A stretch of 64,000 bases of DNA from Aquirufa ecclesiirivi. Its GTDB lineage: Bacteria > Bacteroidota > Bacteroidia > Cytophagales > Spirosomataceae. The stretch covers positions 1 to 64,000 of the forward strand of contig NZ_JAANOP010000011.1 of the NCBI RefSeq assembly GCF_011250515.1. The letters are read 5' to 3'. The notes below the pieces were generated by a model. The model was not told the DNA's origin and made no database searches. It saw nothing but the letters and a program-made list of their open reading frames with translations. Both the position numbers and the translations under genes were made by a program. This document shows positions 22,146-50,481 of this stretch, piece after piece (within the stretch, counting starts at the first letter, position 1; each line of letters starts with the position of its first letter).

Positions 22146-22292
22146 GTCGGTCAGCACGAGCGAAAGTTGATGAACGCAGCGATAGACGAGGTTTTGACCA
22201 CAGCATGGGCTATGCGCATCGGAGTCAAAAATATAGGCGATAGCGGAGTGAATCACGGTTTCGCGAAGCGAAATTCGCCTTTGCTGAACGAC
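22146..22292 (+). repeat. Type A structured element, copy 1
   Basis: 147 bp enclosed by an 11-bp stem (GTCGGTCAGCA 22146-22156 with TGCTGAACGAC 22282-22292, 10 of 11 pairs). Inside are a TTTTGAC/GTCAAAA stem (22192-22198 with 22224-22230) and a hairpin TTTCGC-GAA-GCGAAA (22259-22273). A 71-codon frame covers it (22134-22346). It is followed by a T/A-rich hairpin (22300-22335, TTTCTTTTTTT...AAAAAAAGAAA) resembling a terminator. It is homologous to type B in the 3' half. Confidence 0.75.
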
Positions 22293-22477
22293 AAAAAAAG
22301 AAGTTTTTTTGTTTCTTTTTTTTCAAAAAAAGAAAAGCCTTGGTAATTGATAAAATGGTAATTGGTGAATTGTAAATGTGTTTTATTTTATTTATTTCAT
22401 TAACATCATCGAATTATTACTTTTCTTGGTCTTTCTTTTTTTTCATAAAAAAAGAAACAAAAAAAACAGAAGAAATA

Positions 22478-22632
22478 CGGTTAATCCTAAGACGAATTCT
22501 GCTACGCAGAACCGATTGTCACTCCGCATACGGCTTTAATCTTTGACGCTTAGCTTTAGCCTACGCACGAGGTCAAAGATGCGTCTTCCGCTTCGCTCAT
22601 GCTTCGTTCCCATCTTTCGTTGGGATTAACCG
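22478..22632 (-). repeat. Type B structured element, copy 1
   Basis: 155 bp closed by a perfect 10-bp stem (CGGTTAATCC 22478-22487 with GGATTAACCG 22623-22632). Its hairpin is TTCTGC-GTA-GCAGAA on the element strand (22497-22511), differing from the other B copies by a compensated base pair. The ATCTTTGAC/GTCAAAGAT stem is perfect here (9 bp). An A/T hairpin lies just outside the 3' end (22433-22465). Orientation is opposite to copy A1, with the A/T hairpins facing each other. Confidence 0.75.
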
Positions 22633-22661
22633 TTTAATGTAGAATGCTATCGTTTGTGAAT

Positions 22662-22740
22662 AATGTTGGCTGAGGCTCTCGAATTGCGTAAGATGTTGGC
22701 TGAGGCTCTCGATGTTGGCTGAGGCTCTCGAAGCCAACAT
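22662..22740. repeat. Three copies of a 20-bp repeat ending in a hairpin
   Basis: ATGTTGGCTGAGGCTCTCGA occurs at 22662, 22692 and 22712. The last copy is followed by AGCCAACAT, giving an inverted repeat ATGTTGGCT...AGCCAACAT. There are no unique spacers of constant size. Confidence 0.75.
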
Positions 22741-22867
22741 TTAACATGAGATTGCAAATCCCTATTATCTGTCATTCGACATGACCATGCGGCTAACCTC
22801 TCAATGTAAAATGTAGAATGAGCCACTACCATTTATACTTTATAATTTATCATTTACAATTTCCTTT

Positions 22868-22918
22868 CCGCCTGCCGCTTCGCTCAAGCTTCGTTCCAAT
22901 CTTTCGTTGGGATTAACC
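22868..22918 (-). repeat. Type B element, 5' fragment
   Basis: About 50 bp matching the first third of type B (GGTTAATCCCAACGAAAGAT, then a GAGCGAAGCGG stretch). The rest of the element is missing, so it is a truncated copy. Confidence 0.65.
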
Positions 22919-22983
22919 TGAGAAAATTGGTATTAGTTTAATTGTCTTGTTTTGAAATAGGCTGATTAATAGCGCATTATAAA

Positions 22984-23080
22984 ATATGAATGGAATTTGA
23001 AATTAATTATTCATTTTACATTTTACATTCTACATTCTACATTCTTCATTCTACATTCTACATTCTTCATTCTACATTGT
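22984..23080. repeat. Tandem ATTCTACATTCTTC-type simple repeat
   Basis: About ten imperfect 7-bp units (ATTCTAC, ATTTTAC, ATTCTTC). The stop codon and the last codons of the gene at 23067-23483 lie inside this repeat. Confidence 0.8.
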
Positions 23081-23483
23081 CCATTTCCTCCGGGAAAGGA
23101 ATAAACACAAAATTCGTAAATTGGCCATCGACCACGAAAAGGCAGGCGAATTCTTCGATGTCTTTGTAATTTTGGACAAATAGCTCTTTGTTTTCTTCTG
23201 CCACCAAACCTCTTTGAAGAAATTCTTCTAAGGTAGAAGCGTGGTAATTCCATTTGTTGCCATTCATTTCATTCACACCAATCAATTTTTGACCAATTTC
23301 AATGGGCCTTTGAGATGTTACAAAAACGGGAAAATCGGAAAACCCTCTTTTCTTGATTTGGTAGGAAGCCTCCTTCAAGAGTTCAGATACCAAGATGAAA
23401 TCACTGGAAATTAAACCCAAGTACTTGCCATTCAAGTCGGGGGAGTTGGGTGCATTGGATAGGGCTTGATAATCTTCAATCAT
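23067..23483 (-). CDS. Conserved hypothetical protein
   Basis: The 138-residue protein has no signal peptide or membrane helix. Segments such as LGLISSDFILVSELLKEASYQIKKRGFSDFPVFV and EEFACLFVVDGQFTNFVFIPFP suggest a compact alpha/beta domain. I do not recognise a named family. It follows ald by 4 bp, so it is probably the last gene of the SDR - tsaE - ald unit. Its last residues (MDNVE) are encoded at the edge of the simple repeat, so the C-terminus may vary between strains. Confidence 0.7.
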   Translation of the reverse strand: MIEDYQALSNAPNSPDLNGKYLGLISSDFILVSELLKEASYQIKKRGFSDFPVFVTSQRPIEIGQKLIGVNEMNGNKWNYHASTLEEFLQRGLVAEENKELFVQNYKDIEEFACLFVVDGQFTNFVFIPFPEEMDNVE

Positions 23484-23487
23484 AATG

Positions 23488-24714
23488 TTAACTCTTACTT
23501 AGTAATAATAATTGGATGTCTTTCACCGCTTTATGAAACAACTTACCTATCATAGGATGCGTGATGTAACCTTTATAAGCATAAACGCCCTTCATGAAGG
23601 ATTTTCCCTGCCAGAGCATTTCTTCTACTCCGCCTGTTTTTCCTGCTTTCAACAAAAAGGAGGTAATTAAATTACTGATGGACAAACTGGCTGTTTGACT
23701 TACTTGGGAAGGGATATTAGGAACACAATAGTGAATTACTCCATATTTGGTAAAGGTAGGATTTCCTAAATTGGTAGTAAATGATGTTTCAAAACAGCCA
23801 CCTTGGTCGATGCACACATCCATAATCAAGGTACCTTCTTTCAACTTGCTCACCATTTCTTCTGTCACGATGCAGGGCGTAATGCCATTATCTGAACGTA
23901 AGGCACCAACAATCACCTGGGCTTCTTGCAAGGCTTTGGGTAAGTTCTCCGAATCAATCACTTGGGTGATGAGCGGAAAGCCTAAGCTTTGCTTCAATCG
24001 TTGTAATTTATAAATGTCTTTATCGAAAACCTGTACTTGAATACCCGCATGCCAGGCGGCCCTTGCGGCTTGCTCCACCACTTGACCAGAACCCAAAAGC
24101 ACCATTTTGCAGGGCGGAACTCCGGTAACATTACCTAACAAAACACCCGGTTGATGTTCCTTACGTAATATTTCTGAAGCTATCGGTAAAACGAGTTGCC
24201 CAGCTATTTCTGCCATGATTTTTACAAATGGAAAGCCTCCTCCATTATCTTCCGCATATTCTAAACCAATGGCCAAAATTTTCTTTTGGATTAGTTTATC
24301 AATGATTTCCACCGTTAAATGATGGTAAGAAGCACAGGAAATGAGGCAATTACCTACTTTCATTAAATCAATCTCCTTTTCGCTAGGTGGACTGATTTTG
24401 ATCACCAAGGGTGACTGCCAAACTTGTGATAAATCTTCCGTAACAGAAGCTCCCGCCAATAAATAATCGGCATCTGAAAAGCCAGAACGCTCTCCTGCGG
24501 ATTTTTCTATGAGCACTTCATGGCCATTGGCTACTAGTAATTGGACAGCATGTGGACTTAGTGCGATTCGGTTTTCGTATTTGGCATGTTCTTTCGGTAT
24601 ACCAATCAAGATACTACGTGCATTTTGTTTGGTCCAGGCCATCGCCTCCATGGGCATGATACCTTGTTGCGCTAATAATTCTTGAAAAGGATTAGATTCC
24701 ATCATTCGTGCCAA
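23488..24714 (-). CDS. ald: Alanine dehydrogenase
   Basis: NAD-dependent interconversion of alanine with pyruvate and ammonia. The 408-residue protein has the AlaDH/PNT N-terminal domain (IGIPKEHAKYENRIALSP, about residues 37-54, followed by VLIEKSAGERSGFSDADY). The Rossmann domain has VLLGSGQVVEQAA (about 205-217), and IMDVCIDQGGCFETS lies near the active site. The transhydrogenase alpha subunit is related but has extra membrane segments not seen here. An N-terminal extension of about 30 residues is common in Bacteroidota homologues. The start overlaps tsaE by 13 bp. Confidence 0.88.
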   Translation of the reverse strand: MARMMESNPFQELLAQQGIMPMEAMAWTKQNARSILIGIPKEHAKYENRIALSPHAVQLLVANGHEVLIEKSAGERSGFSDADYLLAGASVTEDLSQVWQSPLVIKISPPSEKEIDLMKVGNCLISCASYHHLTVEIIDKLIQKKILAIGLEYAEDNGGGFPFVKIMAEIAGQLVLPIASEILRKEHQPGVLLGNVTGVPPCKMVLLGSGQVVEQAARAAWHAGIQVQVFDKDIYKLQRLKQSLGFPLITQVIDSENLPKALQEAQVIVGALRSDNGITPCIVTEEMVSKLKEGTLIMDVCIDQGGCFETSFTTNLGNPTFTKYGVIHYCVPNIPSQVSQTASLSISNLITSFLLKAGKTGGVEEMLWQGKSFMKGVYAYKGYITHPMIGKLFHKAVKDIQLLLLSKS

Positions 24715-25136
24715 ATTGCTGTAAGATGACGGTGCTTTTCATCTTGAGTACTAATATTTATTTCTATATGAGGAAAATCCCACAGGTCTTCGGCTTGTTC
24801 TGGCCATTCGATTAAACAAAGATGACCAGAATCTAGGTATTCTTCAATACCAATGTCCAAAGCTTCTCGAACATTTTTCAAACGGTAGAGGTCAAAGTGG
24901 TAAATAATATCTCCAGCCTCATTTTGATATTCATTGACCAAAGAAAAGGTAGGGCTTTGTACTGATTGTAAAACGCCCAACTGTTTGCCCAATTCTTTGA
25001 TTAAGGTGGTCTTACCCGCTCCCATTTGTCCACGAAAAAGATAAACGGAAGGAAATGGAGAGCTTAATGCGATCCAATCTTTTACCACAGCGGGTAAATC
25101 TTCTAAGGTATATGTTGCGCTAAATACTTGTTTCAT
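24702..25136 (-). CDS. tsaE: tRNA t6A biosynthesis ATPase TsaE
   Basis: An essential ATPase partner of TsaB/TsaD in making threonylcarbamoyl-adenosine at tRNA position 37. The 144-residue protein has the P-loop GQMGAGKT (36-43), the switch-like SPTFSLVNEY (about 60-69) and the HFDLYRL and LIEWPE motifs. It overlaps the SDR gene by 1 bp and ald by 13 bp, which suggests translational coupling. Confidence 0.93.
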   Translation of the reverse strand: MKQVFSATYTLEDLPAVVKDWIALSSPFPSVYLFRGQMGAGKTTLIKELGKQLGVLQSVQSPTFSLVNEYQNEAGDIIYHFDLYRLKNVREALDIGIEEYLDSGHLCLIEWPEQAEDLWDFPHIEINISTQDEKHRHLTAIWHE

Positions 25137-25840
25137 TAGTCTAAATCAATATCTCCTAGTTGTGGACGAATCAATATTTCCTCTAATACGGTTGAAGGGG
25201 CCATTTGGTATGCTGCCCAAATGGTGGAGGCAATGTCTTCGGCAGGAATAAATCGACTAGCTGGTAAATTGACTCCATCCCAAGAAGGTGTTAAGGTAGC
25301 ACCTGGTAAAATGGCGGTTACTTTGATCCCTTGGGTTTTTAATTCTTCTCTTAATACTTTGGTGAAACCTAAGAGCGCAAATTTACTGATGCAGTAAGAA
25401 CCCCCTTGGGTATATGCTGTGATAGATGCGGTAGAACAAATAGTAAAAATATGTCCTGATTGCTGAGCTTGAAAAATAGGTAGCAATGCTCGCGTCAAAT
25501 GGTAAGCCGAATATAAATTAGTCTCAATTTGTCGCTCCAGCGCGTTTTCCTCCTCATTTTGAATTTGACCTGGAAGAAAAAATCCTGCATTATTAATCAA
25601 TACATCTAGCTGAGAACTATGCTGTAGCACAAATTGAGCAAAAGCTTGAGTTTGATCTTTTTGACTGAGATCCGCCACAAATGTATGGAGCAAAGGACTG
25701 TTCAATTCCTCCTGTAAAGCGGCTAAACTATCTGCCTTACGGGAGCAAGTAAAGGTCTTATATCCTTCGGAGATAAATTTTTTCACTAAAGCTTTGCCAA
25801 TTCCCTGACTACCCCCGCTGATTACTACCGTTTTGTTCAT
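25136..25840 (-). CDS. SDR-family oxidoreductase
   Basis: The 234-residue classical short-chain dehydrogenase has the cofactor loop GGSQGIGK (9-16), NNAG (83-86), the catalytic serine region CSTAS (135-139) and YCISK (Tyr149, Lys153). The TCSRK sequence after beta2 suggests NADP preference. The substrate is unknown. It overlaps tsaE by 1 bp and is divergent from the MlaE-type permease. Confidence 0.87.
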   Translation of the reverse strand: MNKTVVISGGSQGIGKALVKKFISEGYKTFTCSRKADSLAALQEELNSPLLHTFVADLSQKDQTQAFAQFVLQHSSQLDVLINNAGFFLPGQIQNEEENALERQIETNLYSAYHLTRALLPIFQAQQSGHIFTICSTASITAYTQGGSYCISKFALLGFTKVLREELKTQGIKVTAILPGATLTPSWDGVNLPASRFIPAEDIASTIWAAYQMAPSTVLEEILIRPQLGDIDLD

Positions 25841-25877
25841 TATATTTGAGTCTTATTGCGCTCAATTAATCCAACGC

Positions 25878-26609
25878 ATGTCAAAATTAGGCAAATATTT
25901 AATCTTCCTTGGTAAGCTTTTTACAAATCCTGAGAAATTTAGGGTCTATGTATCTTTGGTGATTCAGGAATGCATGGATATAGGAATCAATTCCTTGTTG
26001 ATTGTCACTATTGTAGCGTCTTTTTTAGGGGCCGTTACTTGTGTGCAAACAGCTGCCAATATGGACAATCCGTTTGTTCCCCAGTATATCATCAGTTTGA
26101 TTGTGCGCGATTCTACCTTATTGGAATTAGGCCCAACCATCACCTGCGTGGTATTGAGCGGAAAAGTGGGCTCTAGCATTGCTGGACAATTAGGTACCAT
26201 GCGCATTACCGAGCAAATTGATGCCTTGGAGGTGATGGGAATCAATTCTCAGTCCTATTTGGTATTACCTAAAATTTTGGCTTCCATCATTACCTTTCCT
26301 ATGTTAGTTACTTTGGCATGTTTCCTAGGTATTTATGGAGGTTATATCGCAGGTTGGTTAACCGGTGCCATTTCTCAGCAAGAGTATATTCACGGTATTC
26401 AATTCAATTTCAAAGGAAATTACATGTTTTTTGCCTTAGTGAAATCCGTGGTATTCGCCTTTTTGATTGCCTCTATCGCTTCATTTCAAGGTTTTTATAC
26501 CAAAGGCGGGGCATATGAAGTAGGAAAAGCAAGTACGGCAGCTGTGACTAATTCTTGTATTGCAGTATTAATTGCTGATTATTTATTGGCCCAATTATTA
26601 GTAGGCTAA
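25878..26609 (+). CDS. MlaE/YrbE-family ABC transporter permease
   Basis: The 243-residue protein has about five transmembrane helices and the family motifs LGAVTCVQTA, RDSTLLELGPTITCVVLSGKVGSSIAGQLGTMRITEQIDALEVMGIN and the C-terminal GGAYEVGKASTAAVTNSCI. Family members are the membrane part of phospholipid transporters (Mla). An open frame reaches 25833, but ATG 25878 gives the usual length and avoids overlap with the divergent SDR. No ATPase (MlaF) or MCE-domain (MlaD) gene follows; the next gene converges with a 4-bp overlap. Confidence 0.88.
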   Translation: MSKLGKYLIFLGKLFTNPEKFRVYVSLVIQECMDIGINSLLIVTIVASFLGAVTCVQTAANMDNPFVPQYIISLIVRDSTLLELGPTITCVVLSGKVGSSIAGQLGTMRITEQIDALEVMGINSQSYLVLPKILASIITFPMLVTLACFLGIYGGYIAGWLTGAISQQEYIHGIQFNFKGNYMFFALVKSVVFAFLIASIASFQGFYTKGGAYEVGKASTAAVTNSCIAVLIADYLLAQLLVG

Positions 26610-27460
26610 ATTCTTTCCATCTTCACTTCTGTTGTCAAACTAGATATGGCGATTCCTCGATAGGTGCCCAAAACGGGTGTGATTTCTTCTGGTAGGCAAG
26701 AGGCCGCCAAAGGAATATGATTTCCTGAGACCACTTCATGTTGGGTTGGATCATAGCCTCTCCAGCCACCACCTGGTAAATAAACTTCCACCCAAGCGTG
26801 TAAATGGTGGGTTTGATTGGGTACATCCACTGGGGCAACCCCAATGTAATAGCCAGAAACAAAGCGAGTGGCTAGGCCCATGGCTCGGCAGAGGGCTGCA
26901 AATAAGACAGCATAATCTCGACAAGAACCTTTTCTGTTTTGTAATGTTATTTCAGGACTATGCGGGGCACCTTCTTCTCGGATTTCGTAGGCAAAGTTTT
27001 GGAATATAAACTCATTGACAGCCGATAAAAATGCAGAAGTATCCCAAAGGACAGCCTTGGCTAATTGCTGAGCACAGGCATCGATATCCGGGCTGATGGC
27101 ATCTTGCGTTAAATATGGACTTAGGGTTCTTTGGTAACTAGGACTGTATTGAAGTGGAAGTTTTTGACTTTCAAAAGGGAAATACACAAAATCAAAAGGA
27201 TTGAATTCAGTGGTTTCTACTACCGCTTCCATGTAAATGCTCAAATGCCTCGTAGGCTGCTTGAAATACAAGATATTTTGAATATTCCCTTCTGGGTCCA
27301 GGTTTTTTGAAATCTGTACGGGCAGCGGTTGTATGTCTAAACTGATGGAGTTGACCGACAGCATAGAGCTTTTTCTGGGATGTAAATACAAGACATGCGG
27401 ATCCAGTGTCACGAGTTCACTATATTGGTAATTCAAACGGTGTTGAATATGTGCGATCAT
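26606..27460 (-). CDS. Transglutaminase-like cysteine protease/amidase
   Basis: The 284-residue protein has an N-terminal bacterial transglutaminase-associated beta domain (about 1-90) and a transglutaminase-like core. Its triad is visible as Cys180 (GSCRDYA), His221 (HLHAWVEV) and Asp237 (YDPT). There is no signal peptide, so it acts in the cytoplasm. It overlaps the Anbu gene by 4 bp and belongs to the Anbu / alpha-E gene group, which comparative genomics has linked to peptide or amide-bond metabolism. The natural substrate is unknown. Confidence 0.88.
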   Translation of the reverse strand: MIAHIQHRLNYQYSELVTLDPHVLYLHPRKSSMLSVNSISLDIQPLPVQISKNLDPEGNIQNILYFKQPTRHLSIYMEAVVETTEFNPFDFVYFPFESQKLPLQYSPSYQRTLSPYLTQDAISPDIDACAQQLAKAVLWDTSAFLSAVNEFIFQNFAYEIREEGAPHSPEITLQNRKGSCRDYAVLFAALCRAMGLATRFVSGYYIGVAPVDVPNQTHHLHAWVEVYLPGGGWRGYDPTQHEVVSGNHIPLAASCLPEEITPVLGTYRGIAISSLTTEVKMERI

Positions 27461-28191
27461 GCCGGCTTGGGGCTAAAAGAAATGAGGTTTTCCATCCATT
27501 TTTCGTCGATTCCTTCCAATGAATTGCGCAAGGCGATATTCCAATCATCGGAAATGCTTTGCATATCTTCTTTGCTTAATCGGATCTCTTTGGCATGAAA
27601 ACTGTTTTTTTCATAGACCACCACATCAATGGGATAATCCACGTCATTGGAACTTACTTGCGTGGCATCAAAAGATAGAAAACCCATTTTTAGGGCATCT
27701 TTTAAGGATGTTTCTGCGGTAAGATTACGGTTTAGCAAAGGCTTGCCATAATTGGAATTGCCAATGATTTGGTATTTCAATCCTTCATTGATTTCAATCC
27801 AATTTCCTTCTGGGAAAATTAAAAAGAGCTTATGTTCTTTATCTTGACTCATTTGACCACCCACCAGAGCATGGAGATTAAAATGGTATCCTTCTTTTTC
27901 CAGTGAATCCCGATCTTCGGAAGCTACTTTTTTAAGCATATTACCAAAAGCCGTAGCAGCCTCAAACATAAAGTCATAACTCGCTTCTTCCTTTTCAATG
28001 GCTTGATTGAAATAGGTGACTGCTTTATCACGCACGGAGCGTAAACCAGCTGTCATGATAAATAAACTATGTTTTTGTACTTCGTGTATGGAGATTTTTT
28101 TATTCGAGTAAACTTCGTTTCCAGCTGTAATTCGGGTATCGGCAATCGCTACTAAACCTTCTTTAACCTTAATTCCTAGGCAAAATGTCAT
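27457..28191 (-). CDS. Anbu-type proteasome-like peptidase
   Basis: A 244-residue Ntn-hydrolase of the Anbu (BPH) family, a bacterial relative of 20S proteasome beta subunits and HslV. The frame is open from ATG 28200, but starting at ATG 28191 gives MTFCLGIKV. Removal of the initiator Met would then expose the catalytic N-terminal Thr, as the family requires, and ADTRITAG (Asp about 18) follows as expected. The start at 28200 would add three residues and block the active site. It lies with transglutaminase (4-bp overlap) and alpha-E genes. Confidence 0.88.
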   Translation of the reverse strand: MTFCLGIKVKEGLVAIADTRITAGNEVYSNKKISIHEVQKHSLFIMTAGLRSVRDKAVTYFNQAIEKEEASYDFMFEAATAFGNMLKKVASEDRDSLEKEGYHFNLHALVGGQMSQDKEHKLFLIFPEGNWIEINEGLKYQIIGNSNYGKPLLNRNLTAETSLKDALKMGFLSFDATQVSSNDVDYPIDVVVYEKNSFHAKEIRLSKEDMQSISDDWNIALRNSLEGIDEKWMENLISFSPKPA

Positions 28192-28214
28192 GTGATTCAA
28201 ATCAAAAATGTGCT

Positions 28215-28222
28215 CAAAAATA
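28215..28222 (-). promoter_or_regulatory. Promoter -7 box for the Anbu gene
   Basis: TATTTTTG on the minus strand, a full TAnnTTTG match, lies between the alpha-E stop and the Anbu start. It suggests that Anbu and transglutaminase can be transcribed separately from alpha-E. Confidence 0.45.
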
Positions 28223-28245
28223 CAAATTTTAAACGAAGGCTAGTC

Positions 28246-29208
28246 TTAGTTGACCGGTTTAAGGTCAAAATAGGTATTGAAAATAGTTTCTCCTACCTCG
28301 TTATTTTTGATTTGAAAATTATCTAAATATTGATGTAGCCCCGTATTTAAGATGTCATCAATCTCCGTGAATTCAACTTCAGAAAGAAGTTTGGATAGTT
28401 TCTTCTCGGCAGGATTAGAAAATCCATTGTCGGAAGAGGTCCCTGAAATGTCATAGAGCGAAGACTGGGCTTCTTTCAAGCAATGAACCACCGAGCGAGG
28501 AAAGTTTTTGTCCAAAATTAAAAACTCCACAATGTGCGTTGGGTTAACCACCTTGTACTGCTGACGAAACATGTTATAAGCCGATACCGACTTTAATACA
28601 GCTGACCAAAGCAATAAGTCCAATGGAGAACCAATTTCATTGACATCCGGTAAAAGTGTAAAATATTTTACGTCCAAAAAACGTGTGGTTTTGTCGGCCC
28701 GCTCCAGCAATTTGCCCAATTGTCCAAAATGCCAAGCTTCACCTCGAGTAATAGTGGAATCAACAATGCCGTAAAATAGCTGACTGCCTGATTTGATTTC
28801 TTCTAGAAAGCCTTGGTAGCGAGAAATTTCCCAGTTTTTACTTCCTTCTACCTTGTCTTTTACTTTCCAATAGATTTGGTTGACATATTCCCACATCTCC
28901 TTGGAAATACTTTCTCGAATGGTACGTGCATTTTCACGGGCGCAATAAAGACAGGAAATAATGGAGTTAGGGTTTTTAATATCAAATGTCATGTAGTGCA
29001 ATACGTTCTCGCGACTGGCCTCCGAATAATGCTCAAAGAAATTAAAATGATCGGCTGTAGCCACAATGAGCGGTTCCCATTGTTCGGGAACATTGGGAGG
29101 AAGGTCTAAAGCAAGGTTGAAATTCACCGAGATAAAGCGGGCATAATTATCCGCTCTTTCAATGTATCGATTCATCCAGTATATGGAATTAGCTACACGA
29201 CTTAACAT
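28246..29208 (-). CDS. Alpha-E domain protein
   Basis: The 320-residue all-alpha protein begins with the family signature MLSRVANSIYWMNRYIERADNYARF. It has further conserved helices such as ENARTIRESISKEMWEYVNQIYW and GEAWHFGQLGKLLERADKTTRFLDVKY. Alpha-E proteins occur with transglutaminases, Anbu and circularly permuted ATP-grasp ligases. Their molecular role is unknown. The ATP-grasp partner normally found next to it is not in this window. The start at 29208 faces pyrD across a 182-bp spacer. Confidence 0.9.
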   Translation of the reverse strand: MLSRVANSIYWMNRYIERADNYARFISVNFNLALDLPPNVPEQWEPLIVATADHFNFFEHYSEASRENVLHYMTFDIKNPNSIISCLYCARENARTIRESISKEMWEYVNQIYWKVKDKVEGSKNWEISRYQGFLEEIKSGSQLFYGIVDSTITRGEAWHFGQLGKLLERADKTTRFLDVKYFTLLPDVNEIGSPLDLLLWSAVLKSVSAYNMFRQQYKVVNPTHIVEFLILDKNFPRSVVHCLKEAQSSLYDISGTSSDNGFSNPAEKKLSKLLSEVEFTEIDDILNTGLHQYLDNFQIKNNEVGETIFNTYFDLKPVN

Positions 29209-29362
29209 AGGCTTTTATATTTATTAAATGCTTGATATTACGAATGATATTTAAAATTAGCCTTTTTTTTAAGAGTAGCAATTGAGCTAGGAAGAAAATT
29301 GAATTTGGCGACAAAATTTGGATTTTATGGAGAAGATTTTCCTCAATCTAGCCCATTTTTTG

Positions 29363-29370
29363 TATTTTTG
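29363..29370 (+). promoter_or_regulatory. Possible pyrD promoter -7 box
   Basis: TATTTTTG, a full TAnnTTTG match, lies 20 bp upstream of the pyrD start. I see no convincing -33 TTG at the ideal distance. Confidence 0.45.
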
Positions 29371-29390
29371 AGGTAAATTAAATTCCTTCT

Positions 29391-30425
29391 ATGATTTATC
29401 AATTCATCATTAAGCCCCTCTTATTTTTGTTGAGTCCTGAAAAAGCTCATTATGTGGTGGCTGACAGTTTACGTTGGATGATGAAAATTCCTGGAGTGAA
29501 ATCCATCTTTCGTTCCTTGTTTCAGTTGGAAGATCCCCGATTAGAAAGGACGGTTTTTGGTATAAAATTTCCTAACCCTGTGGGTCTAGCGGCAGGATTT
29601 GATAAAAATGCTTCTTTGGTGGATGAGTTTTCTAATTTGGGTTTTGGCTTCATCGAAGTGGGAACAGTTACTCCTAAAGCACAGGATGGCAACCTTCAGC
29701 CGCGTTTATTCCGTTTACCAGCCGATCATGCGCTAATCAATCGCATGGGATTTAATAATGAAGGATTGGATGCCATGAAAGCACGCTTGGCGAAGCGAAC
29801 ATCCAAGGTAATCGTCGGGGGAAATTTGGGTAAGAATAAAATAACGCCCAATGAATTGGCCGAGGAAGATTATTGCTTAGGATTTGAAGCTTTGTTTGAT
29901 GTTGTGGATTATTTTGTAGTGAATGTAAGTTCTCCCAATACCCCCAATCTGCGTGATTTACAGGAGAAGGAACCGCTCAAGAAATTATTGAGTCGATTAC
30001 AATCCTTGAATGCACTTAAACCTAGCCCCAAGCCAATTTTATTAAAAATTGCCCCTGATTTGTCCAATGCTCAATTGGATGATGTTTTGGAAATAGTTCA
30101 AGAGACGAATTTGGCAGGAATTATTGCGACCAATACTACGCTTTCTCGAGAAGGATTGCAATCGGATCCTAGCCTAAGTAAAGAAATGGGAGGTTTGAGT
30201 GGGAAGCCATTGACCCAGCGTTCTACGGAAGTGATTGCCTATTTGTATCAACATTCTAACGGTAAAATACCCATTATAGGAGTAGGAGGGATACATTCTG
30301 CCAAAGATGCCTTGGATAAGTTGAGGGCAGGAGCTAGCTTGGTTCAGGTTTATACGGGTTTTGTGTATGAAGGCCCAAGTTTAGTCAAAAAAATCAATCA
30401 AGGAATCATTCAATCGGGTCTATAA
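29391..30425 (+). CDS. pyrD: Dihydroorotate dehydrogenase (quinone), class 2
   Basis: Oxidises dihydroorotate to orotate in pyrimidine synthesis and passes electrons to quinone at the inner membrane. The 344-residue protein has the N-terminal amphipathic membrane-anchoring region of class 2 enzymes (about 1-40). The FMN barrel carries [30 protein letters not shown], the catalytic-serine segment [15 protein letters not shown] and the phosphate-binding IGVGGI and QVYTGF motifs. It is a single gene with its own promoter, ending 63 bp before ftsK. Confidence 0.95.
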
Positions 30426-30488
30426 AAATGATTTTGTAAATCGAATCAAAAAAGCGAAATTTACAGATAGCATTCATCCTACACCTTT

Positions 30489-32960: not shown

Positions 32961-32967
32961 CATAACC

Positions 32968-33576: not shown

Positions 33577-33641
33577 ATTGTGAATGATGAATTGTAAATG
33601 GTAAATGATTTCGAATTGTAGTATTACCTTATACAGAAATT

Positions 33642-34442: not shown

Positions 34443-34465
34443 AAGATGCTATTAAATATTGACCG

Positions 34466-40901: not shown

Positions 40902-40935
40902 TTTTTTGCTATTCAAGTCAAGCAAAAGTAAATAA

Positions 40936-40951
40936 GTTAGACTAATCTAAC
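40936..40951. promoter_or_regulatory. DtxR/MntR-like operator
   Basis: GTTAGACTAATCTAAC: a 6-bp inverted repeat (GTTAGA N4 TCTAAC) resembling DtxR-family boxes such as TTAGG(N)TTAGCCTAA. It lies in the -33 region of the regulator gene and upstream of the divergent TonB receptor, so it could control both. Confidence 0.65.
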
Positions 40952-40974
40952 AAATTAAGTTTTATCTTTTTTTG

Positions 40975-40982
40975 TATCTTTG
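40975..40982 (+). promoter_or_regulatory. Promoter -7 box of the DtxR-family gene
   Basis: TATCTTTG, a full TAnnTTTG match, 23 bp upstream of the start codon and 23 bp after the inverted-repeat operator. Confidence 0.6.
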
Positions 40983-41005
40983 GATATTAATCCCTTTTTT
41001 CATTC

Positions 41006-41716: not shown

Positions 41717-41793
41717 GCTTTGGTATATCTAATTTTTAAGAAGTCGATTGTTGGTCTTTCAGTTCTACTTTGAAACAAACTTGAATCTAAATA

Positions 41794-43086: not shown

Positions 43087-43124
43087 AAATTAGATTACCA
43101 GGGCTTTTGGCTTACAAATATCGA

Positions 43125-45248
43125 ATGAAATTTTTAGTATTCTTATTTTTTGGATTCCTAAGCTCGGAAATACTTGCCCAGGCACCATCTTGGAAGCAAA
43201 GTTCGCAAATCCCGGTGAAAGTCAATCAATCATTTTTAGCCAATCCATGGGCAGGAGGCTTTAATTCTGTCCAAGTGGAAAGTATGGATTTAAATGCGGA
43301 TGGACTAGAAGATTGGGTGATTTTCGATCGGAGCACCCAAAAATTGAGTACTTTTTTGCGCGTTAAAAATGCATCGGGTCAAATTTCACAGGTCTACAGT
43401 CCTTTATATGAATCCCATTTTCCCAAAATAGAAAATTGGTTTCACTTGGTGGATTATAATCAAGATGGCAAAAAAGATTTATTCTGTTCGGCTCCAGCAG
43501 GGATGAAGATATACCAAAATACATCGGGGGCGAATATCTCATTTCAAATCTTGGCCGATCCTGTGTATTCCGAAGGCTTCTCAGGAAAAATCAATTTGTA
43601 TGTAGCCGCTTCCGATATTCCGGCCATTGGTGATGTGGATGGTGATGGGGATGTGGATGTGCTGGCCTTTGAACCGGCAGGACATTATGTGGAGTTTCAT
43701 GAAAATGTCGCTGCTAATGGTTCAGGACTGATTCAGTTCAAGAAAACGGTGGATTGTTGGGGCGACTTTATTCACAATGATTGTGAAGATGTGATATTAG
43801 GGAAATCTTGTAGTACAAGCTATATTCCTTTTCAAGTAAAAAGTCCTAATCAGGTGATGCATTCAGGGAATAGTTTGGCAATCTTGCCCAATAAAAATGG
43901 GTTACCTGACCTCTTATTTGGCCATGTTTCCTGTCAGAATCTCATTCATTTAATCAATACAGGTACAGCTTCTAAGCCTCAATTCAGCCAATTGAATTAC
44001 CATTTTCCTACTGGAAACCCCGTTCAAGTGGGTGCTTTTGCTTCAGCATTTCCTCAAGATGTGAATGGAGATGGGAAATTAGACTTGTTGGTATCAAGTA
44101 ATACCTATGATAATGCTTTGTATAGCCAAAATTTCCAACAATCCTTAGCATATTACCAGTTGGAAGGAGGTAATTGGGTAGAAAAGAACTCTGCCTTCCT
44201 GCAAGATCAGATGTTGGATGTAGGAGAAAATGCGGCGCCTCTTTGGTGGGATGCTGATGGGGATGGAGATCTAGACCTAGTAATCGGAAATAACGGTATT
44301 CGGGGAGCTAGGGGTGTAAGGGCAAGTTTGACTTATTATGAAAATATAGGGACAGCCCAGCAAGCTTCTTTGCTTTTGAAGAGTACCGACTTTGGCAATT
44401 TTAGCGCAGGGATACAAGCTACGGAAATCATTCCCCAAGCGGTAGATTGGGATGGAAATGGAAAGAAAGAGCTATTGATTTCATATCAAACTTTTGTAGG
44501 GGCAAAGCTGGCACTTTATACCATAGATAATAAATGGCAAGAAATCCCAGTATCCGTTCTGCAAGTAGGAGAGACACCCTTGTTTGTTGATTGGAACCAA
44601 GATGGAAAATTGGATTTATTGGTGTTAGAGAAATCGGGAAGAATACGATCCTATCAATTTCAAACAGATAAATCCTTGCAATTGGACAATGCCAATTGGG
44701 CCAATCTGCTTCAAGATTTGAATTTCATCCCGAAAAGCCTCAGCTTCTTGGATGTCAATGGGGATGGTAAAATGGAATGTTTGGTATTTGATCGAATCGG
44801 CAAAGCACAATTAATCAACTTCAGTTTGGATGGGAAAAGTGCTACACGATCACCAGCATTTACATGGACAGCCGATTTTGGTGAGCGCGTATGGCCGAGT
44901 GCAGGCGATTGGAATGGGGATGGTAAAATGGATCTTAGCCTTGGCTTAGGTGCAGGAGGTGTTCAGTTATTGGAGAATATAAGTACAAATCCCGTTGTCG
45001 AACAAGTAAACCAAGATCGCTTACAAGTATGGCCAAATCCGAGCAAAGGGCCCATTTTTGTGATGAGTGAGGCAGCAGGAGTATTGACCTTCCTGGACTT
45101 ACAAGGAAGAGTCATGATGAATTCCATAGCCATTCAAGCCAAAGAAACCAAAACCATTCAATTACCTAAGGGATTTCAAGGGACGGTATTTGTCCGCTGG
45201 CAAAATCTGGCCGGTCAGACCATCGTGAAGCGTTTGCTGATCGACTAA
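43125..45248 (+). CDS. VCBS/FG-GAP repeat protein with type IX secretion sorting domain
   Basis: The 707-residue exported protein has a signal peptide (MKFLVFLFFGFLSSEILAQ; ATG 43125 preferred to TTG 43107) and about nine calcium-loop repeats of the form DxDGDGxxDLL, for example DVDGDGDVDVLAF, DVNGDGKLDLLV and DWNGDGKMDLSLG. It ends in a type A T9SS C-terminal domain (about 640-707, VWPNPSKGPIF...VKRLLID). It is probably displayed on or released from the surface, with a beta-propeller fold and an unknown ligand. It ends in a 4-bp convergent overlap with the TauE-like gene. Confidence 0.85.
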   Translation: MKFLVFLFFGFLSSEILAQAPSWKQSSQIPVKVNQSFLANPWAGGFNSVQVESMDLNADGLEDWVIFDRSTQKLSTFLRVKNASGQISQVYSPLYESHFPKIENWFHLVDYNQDGKKDLFCSAPAGMKIYQNTSGANISFQILADPVYSEGFSGKINLYVAASDIPAIGDVDGDGDVDVLAFEPAGHYVEFHENVAANGSGLIQFKKTVDCWGDFIHNDCEDVILGKSCSTSYIPFQVKSPNQVMHSGNSLAILPNKNGLPDLLFGHVSCQNLIHLINTGTASKPQFSQLNYHFPTGNPVQVGAFASAFPQDVNGDGKLDLLVSSNTYDNALYSQNFQQSLAYYQLEGGNWVEKNSAFLQDQMLDVGENAAPLWWDADGDGDLDLVIGNNGIRGARGVRASLTYYENIGTAQQASLLLKSTDFGNFSAGIQATEIIPQAVDWDGNGKKELLISYQTFVGAKLALYTIDNKWQEIPVSVLQVGETPLFVDWNQDGKLDLLVLEKSGRIRSYQFQTDKSLQLDNANWANLLQDLNFIPKSLSFLDVNGDGKMECLVFDRIGKAQLINFSLDGKSATRSPAFTWTADFGERVWPSAGDWNGDGKMDLSLGLGAGGVQLLENISTNPVVEQVNQDRLQVWPNPSKGPIFVMSEAAGVLTFLDLQGRVMMNSIAIQAKETKTIQLPKGFQGTVFVRWQNLAGQTIVKRLLID

Positions 45249-46201
45249 AAGAATTTATCTGCTCCGAGGATAATTTGACGAAGGCTAACAATGATAATCA
45301 CCATACCCACTAATATCATCATGGATTTGATCGGAAGTTTGTTGGCCAACCTGGCTGCAATAGGAGCTGCGACCACACCACCCAAGATTAAGCCAATGAT
45401 AACTTGCCAATACCCTAAACCAATGACCGTAAAAAAGGTCAAAGAAGAAGCAAGGGAAACAAAAAACTCAGTAAGGTTCACACTGCCAATGGTGTATTTG
45501 GGATGACGCCCCGAGGCAATCAACGTAGAAGAAACGATGGGCCCCCAGCCACCTCCACCAATGGAATCTAAATAGCCACCAAATAGCGCTAAAAGCCCTA
45601 CTTTTTTCAATTGTCGTTTTTCTTGTCTTTTGATCAATGCCTTCCGGATGATGATGGCACCCAGAAATAAGGTATAGATAGAAACGATGGGTTTGATATA
45701 ACCCGCATATTCTTCTAGGCTAGAAATCACATAAGCCCCTAAGATGGCTCCAATGATACCCGGAATCACTAAGGTTTTAAAAAGCTTGGAATTAACATTG
45801 CCGAATTTCAAGTGCATGTAACCTGAAACGCCCGAAGTGAATACTTCGGAAGCATGAACACTGGCAGAAGCTGCGGCAGGAGAAATACCCACGGATAGTA
45901 AAAAGGTGGTAGCTGTAACACCATAGGCCATGCCTAAGGCCCCATCAATCATTTGGGCTAAAAAACCTCCTAAGATGTAATATAGAATTTCAGAATTGAT
46001 GGAAGAGAAGACCACTTCCATTTTGGCAAAGGTCACATAGGTAAATAATAAATGTCCCACGATCATCAAAGCCAGCGCATTACTGATGTGAATAATCACT
46101 TCGGTAATACTTCTTTCCCGTTTCCAAATGGTTTGCACCGCGTTGAAAATGCTCGGAAATTTTCTCTTTGTATCTGAACTAGGAGGAATATTTTGGGACA
46201 T
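45245..46201 (-). CDS. TauE/SafE-family anion permease
   Basis: The 318-residue inner-membrane protein has about eight helices and family motifs GGFLAQMIDGALGMAYGVTATTFLL (residues about 74-98), SASVHASEVFTSGVSGYMHLKFGNV and GGYLDSIGGGGWGPIVSSTLIASG. These proteins export sulfite, sulfoacetate or related anions. The N-terminal 45 residues are a longer cytoplasmic extension than in many relatives. An inverted repeat in its promoter (46239-46258) may be an operator. Confidence 0.87.
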   Translation of the reverse strand: MSQNIPPSSDTKRKFPSIFNAVQTIWKRERSITEVIIHISNALALMIVGHLLFTYVTFAKMEVVFSSINSEILYYILGGFLAQMIDGALGMAYGVTATTFLLSVGISPAAASASVHASEVFTSGVSGYMHLKFGNVNSKLFKTLVIPGIIGAILGAYVISSLEEYAGYIKPIVSIYTLFLGAIIIRKALIKRQEKRQLKKVGLLALFGGYLDSIGGGGWGPIVSSTLIASGRHPKYTIGSVNLTEFFVSLASSLTFFTVIGLGYWQVIIGLILGGVVAAPIAARLANKLPIKSMMILVGMVIIIVSLRQIILGADKFF

Positions 46202-46230
46202 ATTGCTTACTCGTAAGGTAAAATCGCCTA

Positions 46231-46261
46231 CAAAAATAGTAGACTTTATCTAATCTACCAA
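46231..46261 (-). promoter_or_regulatory. TauE/SafE promoter with internal inverted repeat
   Basis: On the minus strand: TTG (46261-46259), a 20-bp spacer, then TATTTTTG (46238-46231), 30 bp before the gene. The spacer itself reads GTAGA...TCTAC (46239-46258), an imperfect inverted repeat well placed for repression. Confidence 0.6.
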
Positions 46262-46331
46262 TAAAGTAGAGTAAATATTTTTTCATAAAAAAGCCGTAAT
46301 TTGCATTCCTTTTTTAAAATGATAAAAATTT

Positions 46332-49154
46332 ATGCGTACAGAGTATCAGTTTCGTGAAATCGAAAAGCAATGGCAGTCTTTTTGGGAGACAAATAATACC
46401 TTTCAAGCACAGGTAAATCCGAATAAACCTAAATATTATGTGTTGGATATGTTTCCTTACCCATCTGGGGCAGGATTGCACGTCGGGCATCCGCTAGGCT
46501 ACATTGCATCTGATATCATCTCACGCTACAAGCGTTTGCAGGGATTTGAGGTTTTACACCCCATGGGATTTGATTCCTTTGGTCTACCTGCGGAACAATA
46601 TGCCATACAAACAGGGCAACATCCTGCCTTAACTACCGAGGAAAATATCGCTAGATACATTGAGCAATTGAAAAACATGGGTTTTTCCTTTGACTGGACG
46701 AGAGAAGTGAGAACCTCCGATCCTTCCTATTATAAATGGACTCAATGGATTTTCATGCAATTGTTCAATTCTTGGTATAATCAGGCTTCCGATAAGGCGG
46801 AGTCGATCGATACCTTGATTCAAATTTTTGAAAAATCGGGCTCTATTGGAGTACAAGCCGTTTGTGATGAAGAGGTAAAACGTATCAGCGCCGAGGAGTG
46901 GAATGCGTATTCTGAAGAAGAAAAATATGCTTATTTATTGTCTTTCCGTTTAGCTTTCTTGGATGATTCGGTGGTGAACTGGTGCCCTGCTTTAGGGACT
47001 GTTTTAGCCAATGATGAAGTCAAAGATGGTGTTTCTGAACGTGGAGGCCATCCCATAGAACAAAAGAAAATGCGCCAGTGGTCCATGCGTATCACGGCTT
47101 ATGCCGACCGACTATTGCGTGGGTTGGAAGAGGTAGATTGGTCAGATTCATTGAAAGAACAGCAGCGCAACTGGATTGGAAAATCCATTGGTGCGGAGGT
47201 AGATTTTGATATCGATAATCCAGCTCTTTCTCATAAAAAAATCAAAGTATTTACGACCCGTGTGGATACCATTTATGGAGTTTCCTTTATGGTTTTAGCA
47301 CCAGAACATGAGTGGGTGGATGAATTGACTACGCCGGAGCAAAAGGAGGCTGTGGAGGCTTATGTGACTTGGGCGAAATCTCGTTCTGAGCTAGATCGTG
47401 TATCAGAAGTAAAGCAAGTGAGTGGTGTATTTACTGGTTCATTTGTCGTCAATCCGTTTAACGGAGAGCGTGTGCCTATTTATTTGGCTGATTATGTCTT
47501 GGCTGGATATGGTACTGGAGCCGTGATGGGTGTACCTTCGGGAGATCAGCGCGACTGGAACTTTGCGACGCATTTTAACCTACCGATCATCCCAATATTG
47601 GATGCTCAGAAGGATATTGAAAAACAAGCTGATGCGACCAAAGAAGGGAAATACATTAATTCTGAATTGATCAATGGAAAGACCTATCAAGAGGCTACTC
47701 CCATTTTAACCGCTTGGTTAGAAGAAAAGGGCATTGGTAAAGCTAAGATTCAGTACCGCATGCGTAATGCAGTATTTTCTCGTCAGCGTTATTGGGGAGA
47801 ACCTGTTCCCGTCTATTTTAAACCGAATTCCCAAGGTGATTTATTGCCTTATTTGATTCAGGAAAGCGAATTGCCCTTAGAATTGCCTAAGATTGATAAA
47901 TATCTACCAACAGAAACGGGCGAACCACCTTTAGGTCGTGCAGCAGATGCTTGGAAATACCAAGGTCAGTACGATTATGAATGGTCGACCATGCCGGGTT
48001 GGGCAGGTTCTTCTTGGTACTGGTACCGTTACATGGATGCTCAAAATGACCAAGAATTTGCTTCCCAAGAGGCCGTGAATTATTGGAAAGCGGTGGATTT
48101 ATACATTGGAGGTTCTGAGCATGCAACGGGGCACTTATTGTATTCTCGTTTTTGGAACAAATTCTTGAAAGATTTGGGTTATGTGCAGGAAGAAGAGTTT
48201 GCTAAAAAATTGATCAATCAAGGAATGATTCAAGGTAGATCTAATTTCGTCTATCGAGTGAAAAACGTGAGTCCAGCTACTTTTGTTTCTCATGGGCTAA
48301 AGGATCAATATGATGTGGCAGCTTTGCATGTGGATGTGAATATTGTGGAGAATGATATATTGAACGTGGAGGCCTTCAAATCTTCTCGAAACGATGTTCC
48401 TGCGGATGCCGTTTTCGTGTTGGAATATGGTAAATATCTATGTGGCTGGGAAGTGGAAAAAATGTCCAAATCCAAGTACAATGTAGTAAATCCCGATGAT
48501 TTGATAACTAAATATGGTGCTGATACCTTGCGTGTTTATGAGATGTTTTTGGGACCATTGGAGCAATTTAAACCTTGGAATACCAACAGTATTTCAGGCT
48601 CTCATAATTTCTTAAGAAAGGTGTGGCGTTTGTTCTTTGATGAAACGACGCAAAAAGTGAAATTGGAAGATTCTCCAGCCAAGCCTGAAGAATTGAAAGT
48701 TTTGCATGCGGCTATCCGAAAAGTCCACGAAGATTTGGAGCGTTATTCGTTCAACACGGTGGTTTCTACCTTGATGATTTGTGTCAATGATTTGACCCAA
48801 TTGAAATGCCATAAGAAAGCTATTTTGAAGGATTTAGTGCTTTTATTATCTCCTTATGCCCCTCATATGGCAGAAGAGTTATGGGTGGCCTTGGGTGAGG
48901 AGGCAGGAAGTATTTCCAAAGCAAAATTCCCTGAGTTCAATGCAGCCTATTTAGTAGAAGATGAATTTAATTACCCGATTTCATTCAATGGAAAAGTGAA
49001 ATTAACTTTGTCTTTTTCTGCGACGGCTAGTCCAGCCGAAGTTGAAGCAGGCGTTTTAGCTCATGCTCAAGTTCAAAAAGTCTTGGATGGTCAAATACCT
49101 AGTAAGATCATTGTGGTTCCGAAGCGGATTGTGAATATCGTTTTGGCAAAGTAG
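46332..49154 (+). CDS. leuS: Leucyl-tRNA synthetase
   Basis: A class I synthetase charging tRNA-Leu. The 940-residue enzyme has the HIGH-type motif HVGH (50-53, in PSGAGLHVGHPLGY), a CP1 editing domain with TTRVDTIYG and GVPSGDQRDW, and KMSKS at 710-714. The anticodon-binding and C-terminal domains follow. Length is typical for Bacteroidota, with insertions in the editing and leucine-specific regions (for example around residues 155-200). The mobile-element region starts 22 bp after the stop. Confidence 0.96.
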   Translation: MRTEYQFREIEKQWQSFWETNNTFQAQVNPNKPKYYVLDMFPYPSGAGLHVGHPLGYIASDIISRYKRLQGFEVLHPMGFDSFGLPAEQYAIQTGQHPALTTEENIARYIEQLKNMGFSFDWTREVRTSDPSYYKWTQWIFMQLFNSWYNQASDKAESIDTLIQIFEKSGSIGVQAVCDEEVKRISAEEWNAYSEEEKYAYLLSFRLAFLDDSVVNWCPALGTVLANDEVKDGVSERGGHPIEQKKMRQWSMRITAYADRLLRGLEEVDWSDSLKEQQRNWIGKSIGAEVDFDIDNPALSHKKIKVFTTRVDTIYGVSFMVLAPEHEWVDELTTPEQKEAVEAYVTWAKSRSELDRVSEVKQVSGVFTGSFVVNPFNGERVPIYLADYVLAGYGTGAVMGVPSGDQRDWNFATHFNLPIIPILDAQKDIEKQADATKEGKYINSELINGKTYQEATPILTAWLEEKGIGKAKIQYRMRNAVFSRQRYWGEPVPVYFKPNSQGDLLPYLIQESELPLELPKIDKYLPTETGEPPLGRAADAWKYQGQYDYEWSTMPGWAGSSWYWYRYMDAQNDQEFASQEAVNYWKAVDLYIGGSEHATGHLLYSRFWNKFLKDLGYVQEEEFAKKLINQGMIQGRSNFVYRVKNVSPATFVSHGLKDQYDVAALHVDVNIVENDILNVEAFKSSRNDVPADAVFVLEYGKYLCGWEVEKMSKSKYNVVNPDDLITKYGADTLRVYEMFLGPLEQFKPWNTNSISGSHNFLRKVWRLFFDETTQKVKLEDSPAKPEELKVLHAAIRKVHEDLERYSFNTVVSTLMICVNDLTQLKCHKKAILKDLVLLLSPYAPHMAEELWVALGEEAGSISKAKFPEFNAAYLVEDEFNYPISFNGKVKLTLSFSATASPAEVEAGVLAHAQVQKVLDGQIPSKIIVVPKRIVNIVLAK

Positions 49155-49157
49155 GAA

Positions 49158-49177
49158 TTAGTTATTAGGGATTAGTG
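49158..49177. repeat. Short repeat flanking the mobile region (left)
   Basis: TTAGTTATTAGGGATTAGTG. A near-complementary copy (CACTAATCCCTAAAAACTAA) is at 50679-50698, so the whole 1.5-kb mobile block is bracketed by inverted copies of this simple sequence. Confidence 0.7.
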
Positions 49178-49300
49178 TCTTGTCCTGATATAGGTTGACA
49201 GTTGGGTTCATTAATTATTCATTGTAAATATAGTTTAAGCTGCATATAAATCAACTGGCTTTTTCATTTTTAAAGCTAAATGTGGTCTTGATTCATTGTA
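49176..49300 (-). mobile_element. Remnant of an IS3-like element: one end plus transposase C-terminus
   Basis: A terminal repeat (49176-49200, TGTCTTGTCCTGATATAGG...) is followed by a minus-strand coding remnant, 49300 to stop 49235. It reads 21 residues including RPHLALKMKKP, the typical C-terminal block of IS3-family OrfB integrases (RPHxxLxxxxP). It is cut at 49300, exactly where the next non-autonomous unit begins, so it was truncated by that insertion or by a deletion. Confidence 0.75.
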
Positions 49301-49430
49301 AGTGTCTTGTCCTGAAATAGGTTTACTTTGAGCTTATTAAAAACTCATTTTAAATATTTAAAAACTGCACTAAAACCTACTTGGTATTTCTTTTTTTTGA
49401 TAAAAAAAGAAACAAAAAAACTTCTTTTTT

Positions 49431-49577
49431 GTCGGTCATCAAAGGCGAATTTCGCTTCGCGAAACCGTGATTCACTACGCTATCGCCTATATTTTTGACG
49501 CCGACACGCATCGCCTTTGCTAAGGTCAAAACCTCGTCTACCGCTGCGTTCATCATCTTTCGCTCGTGCTGACCGAC
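49431..49577 (-). repeat. Type A structured element, copy 2
   Basis: 147 bp, the same length as copy 1. The terminal stem pairs GTCGGTCAGCA with TGATGACCGAC: the mismatch of copy 1 is repaired here and a different one appears. The hairpin TTTCGC-GAA-GCGAAA is intact. A roughly 71-codon frame (49377-49592) covers it, about 70% identical to that of copy 1. Confidence 0.75.
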
Positions 49578-49643
49578 GGTATTTTCTATCAAAAAATCAC
49601 AAATTTCATTCTGAAACTAAACTCTAATAAAGACAACTGAAGA

Positions 49644-49799
49644 GGTTAATCTCAACGAAAGATGGGAACGTAGCATGAGCGAAGCGGAAGGCGGATATTT
49701 GACCCGGCGCATAGGCCATGTGCGTTAGAGTCAAAGATTAAAGCCGTGTGCGGAGTGAACATCGGTTCCGCGAAGCGGAATTCGTCTTAGGATTAACCG
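49644..49799 (+). repeat. Type B structured element, copy 2
   Basis: 156 bp. The terminal stem is GGTTAATC with GATTAACC and the hairpin is TTCCGC-GAA-GCGGAA (49766-49780). An inner TTTGAC/GTCAAA stem encloses CGCATA...TGTGCG. It is followed by a T/A-rich hairpin (49808-49840). Confidence 0.75.
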
Positions 49800-50112
49800 T
49801 TACTTCATTTTTTTTGTTTCTTTTTTTTAAAAAAAGAAATCCCTAAGCAATGGCATTAAAGTAGAGTGAGATATAAAATATCAAGTATTGCTACAATAAA
49901 TACATATTGGAAAATCCAAAATATTTATGTTTGATAACTACAAGCTGAGTCTTCCTAAAAAATGTCAACCTAAATCAGGGACGTACATCTTGTCCTGAAA
50001 TAGGTTTACTTTGAGCTTATTAAAAACTCATTTTAAATATTTAAAAACTGCACTAAAACCTAATGGTATTTCTTTTTTTTGATAAAAAAAGAAACAAAAA
50101 AACTTCTTTTTT

Positions 50113-50259
50113 GTCGGTCATCAAAGGCGAATTTCGCTTCGCGAAACCGTGATTCACTACGCTATCGCCTATATTTTTGACGCCGACACGCATCGCCTTT
50201 ACTAAGGTCAAAACCTCGTCTACCGCTGCGTTCATCATCTTTCGCTCGTGCTGACCGAC
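50113..50259 (-). repeat. Type A structured element, copy 3
   Basis: 147 bp, almost identical to copy 2, inside unit 2. It has the same stem and hairpin pairs. Confidence 0.75.
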
Positions 50260-50325
50260 GGTATTTTCTATCAAAAAATCACAAATTTCATTCTGAAACT
50301 AAACTCTAATAAAGACAACTGAAGA

Positions 50326-50481
50326 GGTTAATCCCAACGAAAGATGGGAACGTAGCATGAGCGAAGCGGAAGGCGGATATTTGACCCGGCGCATAGGCCA
50401 TGTGCGTTAGAGTCAAAGATTAAAGCCGTATGCGGAGTGAACATCGGTTCCGCGAAGCGGAATTCGTCTTATGATTAACCG
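50326..50481 (+). repeat. Type B structured element, copy 3
   Basis: 156 bp, almost identical to copy 2. The 5' arm is restored to GGTTAATCC, while the 3' arm has TGATTAACC, losing one pair. Confidence 0.75.

Follow-up and report, generated by a model that had tools for sequence, protein, structure and literature searches.

A structured A/B repeat family with alternating inverted order in Aquirufa and a single-copy relative in Sandaracinomonas limnophila

The repetitive extragenic palindromes (REPs) and bacterial interspersed mosaic elements (BIMEs) of Escherichia coli, together with REPINs, are described as intergenic and multi-copy, with two palindromic types alternating in inverted orientation, a preference for convergent sites, and stems that stay complementary while their sequence drifts (PMC2817692, PMC3733652). 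Here we analyze a repeat family with two subtypes, A and B, in the first 64 kb (the window) of contig C2 from the 3.1-Mb genome of Aquirufa ecclesiirivi. The A/B units are likewise intergenic, multi-copy, alternating and inverted, often convergently placed, and complementary in their stems despite drift. They differ from REPs and BIMEs in that each consists of about 150 nucleotides (nt) plus a tail and folds as a three-way junction, whereas REPs are hairpins of 20-65 nt; a GTAG guide is not seen at both A and B; and no gene for a REP-associated tyrosine transposase (RAYT) was found bounded by A/B at 12 loci with a Y1 transposase domain (some overlapping).

Other described families resemble A/B in part. 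RAYT subclass 2.6 is presented as a group of Bacteroidetes with a length of 179 amino acids (aa) and atypical structures, copies of which occur elsewhere in the genome (PMC6006769). A. ecclesiirivi matches this in its Bacteroidota affiliation, its unusual repeats and two Y1 proteins of 175 aa, a likeness drawn by length, but the structures beside its 175-aa genes are GTTGGCT and GTTCGACATG repeats, not A/B. Enterobacterial RU/ERIC-type repeats are given as 127-168 bp (PMC2759123); like these and like miniature inverted-repeat transposable elements, A/B is intergenic and multi-copy and of similar size, but terminal inverted repeats are not seen at the ends of the A/B units themselves, and units with insertion-sequence (IS) ends hold some of the pairs. 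CGTC-tagged REPs form a family without a dedicated transposase (PMC3733652). Many A units start with CCGTCG, and A/B likewise lacks a tied transposase; the CGTC of A lies inside a stem, however, B starts with GGTTAATCC, and size and fold differ. No description of the A/B repeats was found in the open-access (PMC) literature.

We judge it an evenly balanced proposition that A/B is a non-autonomous, structured, BIME-like intergenic repeat that was moved as a passenger and in which the fold of one strand, most likely as RNA, has been kept.

Two homologous subtypes in inverted pairs

A and B are one homologous family, since a covariance model derived from 70 B cores detects A at 53-81 bits (one deleted A copy at 44) as well as both partial copies in the window. 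Applied to this genome, the same model yields 61 matches at E<=1, beyond chance. An earlier note, made from the letters of this DNA, had listed eight occurrences, and sequence reading, BLAST and the covariance model all recover them as three full A units, three full B units and two fragments. Core lengths are 147 nt for A and 153-155 nt for B in the window, and 143-155 nt across the family. The note called these copies dispersed, a term that does not fit: each full A in the window adjoins an inverted B, so that the units are paired. Nor did it notice that A and B alternate, that the family is restricted in its distribution or that S. limnophila has a copy.

In the first pair, the A core lies at 22146-22292 on the forward strand (B model, 59.4 bits at 22149-22289), followed by its tail of a T-rich tract and an A/T hairpin at 22293-22335. 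Approximately 22336-22431 is a tail-to-tail joint with the A/T hairpin of A on one side and that of B on the other; it leads to the B tail with its hairpin (22432-22478) and the B core (22479-22631; 153.4 bits), both on the reverse strand. A partial B copy comprising the 5' arm follows at 22791-22919 on the reverse strand (BLAST; 36.8 bits). The other two pairs lie in a unit with IS-like ends at 49303-49987 and its second, tandem copy at 49988-50669, both on the forward strand. The first holds an A core at 49431-49577 on the reverse strand (58.9 bits), a B core at 49644-49798 on the forward strand (176.9 bits) and a B tail with A/T hairpin at 49799-49843, also forward; the second holds A at 50113-50259, reverse (56.5 bits), and B at 50326-50480, forward (177 bits). 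Because these are two tandem copies (~99% identical) of one ~683-bp unit, the 49.4- and 50.1-kb pairs are not independent. The remaining fragment, the 3' half of a B with its tail, is at about 131-293 on the forward strand (BLAST; 31.8 bits).

The paired order extends to relatives, which we sampled through fetched loci. Across six genomes, 63 of 66 neighbouring full-unit pairs at most 300 bp apart are inverted A-B. Most head joints (30 of 33) are 27-103 bp long, and most tail joints (24 of 30), which sit between two A/T hairpins, are 64-94 bp long. Head joints often contain a heptamer microsatellite, TACATTC/TTCATTC, as read in loci L031 and L042 and, with a single unit, in L064, not in L053. 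Clusters fall between predicted genes. Many copies are cut short or have had their middle replaced. The family may be undercounted in the assemblies, as one A/B array contains an N run (L031, 3224-3318) and the contigs of L036 and L040 break off a few hundred bases or less from A/B copies.

A three-way junction with covarying stems

The consensus fold is a three-way junction made of a terminal stem, a CGAA/TTCG stem, a long arm that runs via TTTGAC/GTCAAA to a variable apex, and a hairpin of 6-7 bp; an A/T-rich hairpin lies beyond the 3' end of the junction. Most of the layout in the earlier note is present as described, namely the TTTGAC/GTCAAA stem, the 6-bp hairpin with a 3-base loop and the outer A/T hairpin, and the hairpin pairs TTTCGC/GCGAAA, TTCCGC/GCGGAA and TTCTGC/GCAGAA occur exactly as claimed. 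For the terminal stem, paired replacement between the two types stands, but the A version that was quoted carries a G.A mismatch. Other copies pair there in four ways (GTCGGTCAGC/GCTGACCGAC, GTCGTTCAGC/GCTGAACGAC, GTCGTACAGC/GCTGTACGAC and GTCGTGCAGC/GCTGCACGAC), and pair 5-147 is unpaired in 14 of 51 A copies. The S. limnophila copy has a replaced yet complementary terminal stem, CATTTAATC/GATTAAATG, and is the best fold of all (z -4.92), with none of 200 shuffles as stable. Among A, B and S. limnophila, 25 of 38 unpaired positions are identical compared with 55 of 108 paired columns, where the paired columns include some gapped in one of the three and the A consensus comes from 54 rows chosen by rank and length, a few of which may not be A.

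For covariation we started from 55 full A and 80 full B matches in the fetched loci and dropped one A and seven B with abnormal length or unclear ends and five exact duplicates, leaving 52 A and 70 B. The A alignment holds 51 of these 52 copies, one with an insertion being excluded. In the combined alignment of A, B and outgroup, which takes in fragments and is fitted to the model, the covariation score is 0.228 against 0.105 for shuffled and at most 0.056 for slid structures, and both sides have changed in 39 of 54 pairs. Within each type the score likewise lies above its shuffled and slid controls, at 0.104 against 0.067 for A alone and 0.086 against 0.065 for B alone. In a tree-based test of our own, modelled on R-scape and using 60 null alignments, two of 54 pairs were significant in B and two of 45 in A (4/99 overall), while the non-structure pairs that passed numbered zero in B and one in A. 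The covariation is real, and it extends beyond phylogeny as expected of a structured RNA; the lack of any significant pair, which the earlier note had named as grounds for abandoning the fold, was not what we found. Double changes on the same branch occur at three hairpin pairs (7, 3 and 2 times), 35 of the 70 B copies have GC and 25 have UA at pair 22-118, and pair 33-107, with one change per side and zero same-branch double changes, is weak evidence. Watson-Crick (WC) pairs have changed to GU 34 times and to AC 17 times (p 0.024; 17 against 5 in A, 17 against 12 in B), in a count that leaves out apex pairs and pairs with a G.U consensus.

A protein-coding repeat was rejected. In A, 31 of 52 copies keep a frame of 57-76 codons open and the other 21 run into a stop within 24 codons, the second codon position of this frame is the most variable (0.094 against 0.046 and 0.050), and the best frame in B is open in just 6 of 70 copies. 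The coding alternative, which the earlier note had framed around 71 codons, thus fails in both subtypes. A reading as integron attC sites was dropped by inspection only, because neighbouring units are inverted and no fit to the R-box consensus was seen. At gathering and relaxed thresholds, nothing in Rfam over A/B or the S. limnophila copy attains the gathering score; elsewhere in the window, Rfam matches a DUF805b cis-regulatory RNA at 4121-4153 on the reverse strand.

Distribution and genomic sites

BLAST found copies in six of 37 Aquirufa genomes, and the 38th (G059) has no covariance-model match. Besides this genome, the carriers match A. beregesia, A. nivalisilvae, A. aurantiipilula and A. 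rosea, and the sixth is a metagenome-assembled genome (MAG) from a pond. The named carriers fit the published A. nivalisilvae branch, with genomes of ~3.0 Mb, A. rosea being placed by subtraction (PMC9163014, PMC11861422). With the covariance model, seven of 390 genomes of the order and seven of 222 of the family gave matches, in searches that scored few candidates per genome and may miss diverged copies. The locus of the seventh genome has the same sequence as Sandaracinomonas limnophila, with a single copy. An exact-pattern scan of a collection of 84,980 species, which misses diverged forms and may not include this genome's own record, returned 42 stretches, all in Aquirufa carriers or S. 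limnophila. Plasmid and phage collections gave zero matches to the A/B pair, and the exact B pattern was not found in viral contigs.

The S. limnophila copy lies just upstream of an XRE-type gene (L152, 1697-1984), which starts shortly after the A/T hairpin, and the unit may be the leader of this regulator gene. XRE-type homologues occur in seven fetched loci (two pairs being the same locus) and are not consistently adjacent to units.

The 67 fetched sites include 11 groups common to at least two genomes, one of them to all six. Some sites are therefore old, even though the arrays differ in size and order. The 22-kb pair lies between xerD (21204-22112) and a convergent gene. Since the xerD region is matched in 37 of 38 genomes of the genus, this adjacency looks incidental. 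The xerD gap holds arrays of differing order in A. ecclesiirivi, A. nivalisilvae and A. beregesia, a microsatellite without A/B in A. aurantiipilula and the MAG, and ~48 bp between flank matches in A. rosea; in 26 non-carriers with both flanks matched it is 19-34 bp long in 16 and ranges over 108-1734 bp in the other 10. The heptamer microsatellite occurs in several intergenic gaps of carriers, including L144 (680-938), and in none of 11 scanned non-carrier loci of the xerD region. In the window it spans 23013-23075, with shorter runs at 22109-22130 and 22806-22819. We also observed a two-frame insertion, which we take to be IS3-like, in a tail joint of the array that adjoins xerD in A. beregesia (L053, 3880-5270).

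Spread and origin of the A/B repeats

Conservation of the folded strand in a non-autonomous BIME-like repeat is supported by the data above, and RNA is somewhat likelier than single-stranded DNA as the form in which the strand is kept. In the simplest history the family would have started as an old single-copy structured sequence such as that in S. limnophila, split into A and B, and been amplified in one Aquirufa branch as alternating inverted arrays. Spread would then have been as a passenger mobilized in trans, in IS-ended units, in arrays mixed with the REPs of the RAYT, and through tandem amplification, frequently next to heptamer microsatellites. The feature preserved would be the fold of the strand with the A/T hairpin at its 3' end, most likely as RNA in the 3' regions of transcripts that extend between the genes. 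There it could make transcription pause or end, or shield the transcript, and with units alternating in direction a gene on either flank would have a sense copy.

Several observations weigh against this reading. Five of the six window copies, folded singly, are only modestly more stable than shuffles (z -1.1 to -2.8), and one folded as DNA reaches z -1.95. In B alone, pairs changed on both sides number 8 against 8.2 in shuffles and pair types 34 against 36.3; taken by itself, B shows a weak excess of GU over AC, and the sense strand is the one on which the structure was defined. The three neighbouring pairs that are not inverted A-B are B-B on one strand, all in A. rosea. The preference for convergent gaps (30 of 62 classifiable sites, with nine further unclassified, compared with nine of the window's 59 adjacent gene pairs) counts orthologous sites repeatedly, and three of 11 window gaps of at least 100 bp are convergent. 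Relative to the gene reading in, nearest units are sense 31 times and antisense 40 times (42 of 71 clusters); with no fixed orientation to the incoming gene, they do not fit a simple terminator role. The 175-aa RAYT is present in three of six carriers, and RAYT-type REPs lie within 500 bp of A/B at 1/10, 3/5, 0/11, 0/10 and 0/6 sites in the other genomes.

It is possible, though in our estimate rather unlikely, that A and B are giant REPs and that a RAYT- or IS200-type Y1 (HUH) transposase moves them as single-stranded DNA, the fold being kept because this enzyme binds it. The alternating order is BIME-like, a strong Y1-domain match (frames of 128-150 aa) is found in five of six carriers and none that strong in 32 non-carriers, and in this genome 10 of the 25 A/B sites have REPs of the 175-aa RAYT mixed in, no more than 500 bp away. 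Three GTTGGCTGAGGCTCTCGA repeats, of the type seen beside the 175-aa RAYT genes on contig C36, lie close to the 22-kb pair (22665-22731, forward strand), and A/B units are neighbours of RAYT REPs in some genomes. The carriers seem to form one branch, however, which confounds the co-occurrence with Y1; A. rosea has no PF01797 match yet carries 11 full B copies among the fetched loci, several non-carriers have weak Y1 matches, and the excess of GU over AC changes favours RNA, weakly. At E<=10 the A/B model has no match in five Y1 loci or in seven more (partly overlapping), and the two that were read hold other palindromes. In L109, two near-identical 175-aa RAYT genes (2893-3420 and 5059-5586; ~75.9 and 78.1 kb on contig C36) lie 2,166 bp apart amid GTTCGACATG-type palindromes, with a 39-bp tandem array of GTTGGCT palindromes after the first. 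All six carriers have the GTTGGCT repeat, A. rosea a single time, and the 32 other genomes lack it; it is this repeat that was counted within 500 bp of A/B. In L089 (1480-2560, contig C32), a 132-aa Y1 transposase is followed by tandem ~90-bp units holding CCATGGATTTAAATCCATGG, which form a separate REP-like family. No link was found that would make the RAYT the cognate enzyme of A/B.

We regard as unlikely that A/B is neutral debris in which template-switch correction of palindromes and gene conversion keep stems complementary without selection. A hairpin with a 3-base loop is the best substrate for template-switch correction, and the same-branch double changes concentrate in that hairpin; A. 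rosea and the MAG have variants such as TTTTTGAC in common, and many copies are truncated. Template switching could account for the short hairpin. It does less well with the terminal stem, where more than 120 nt separate the two strands and replacement between A, B and S. limnophila has been complementary, and with the internal-loop positions conserved across types; the split between GC and UA at B pair 22-118 also speaks against it. The earlier note's argument for selection on the fold is accordingly upheld where paired hairpin changes recur independently and the fold persists across genera, and loses force in that template-switch correction could by itself give the hairpin changes.

We think it quite unlikely that the single-copy element of Sandaracinomonas is a structured RNA of a new class that turned selfish in one Aquirufa branch, with A and B acting as a pair and amplification reading the folded strand; opposite orientation and matched joints may then be kept because A and B act together. 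Still less probable is a family of trans-acting small RNA genes, with a unit ending near the A/T hairpin and arrays raising the dose. Such genes would fit with the fold being stable and its loops conserved where a genome has just one copy, and with the T-tract and A/T hairpin that follow the 3' end of A, B and S. limnophila units alike, but A/T-only hairpins are poor intrinsic terminators, no promoter was seen by eye (inspection only, no promoter scan), and many copies are truncated or have their middle replaced. That A/B is internal IS sequence is hardly tenable, as the earlier note had argued: IS-ended units hold the 49-50-kb pairs, and related units hold A/B pairs in L034, L049-L051 (three loci of A. 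beregesia), L060, L061 and L069 (ends read in L049-L051 and L069, degenerate in L034, no clear target duplication by eye), but, apart from the IS3-like insertion within the L053 array, such bounding ends are not seen at the 22-kb copies or in the arrays of L031, L042, L053 and L064.

If the reading of A/B as a passenger repeat with a conserved fold is correct, it would be a BIME-like system made of a complex folded unit, not a simple hairpin, that was amplified in part of one genus and has a lone out-group copy. Such a family would offer a way to study by experiment how a structured sequence turns into a repeat of the genome, and which form selection acts on, RNA or single-stranded DNA.

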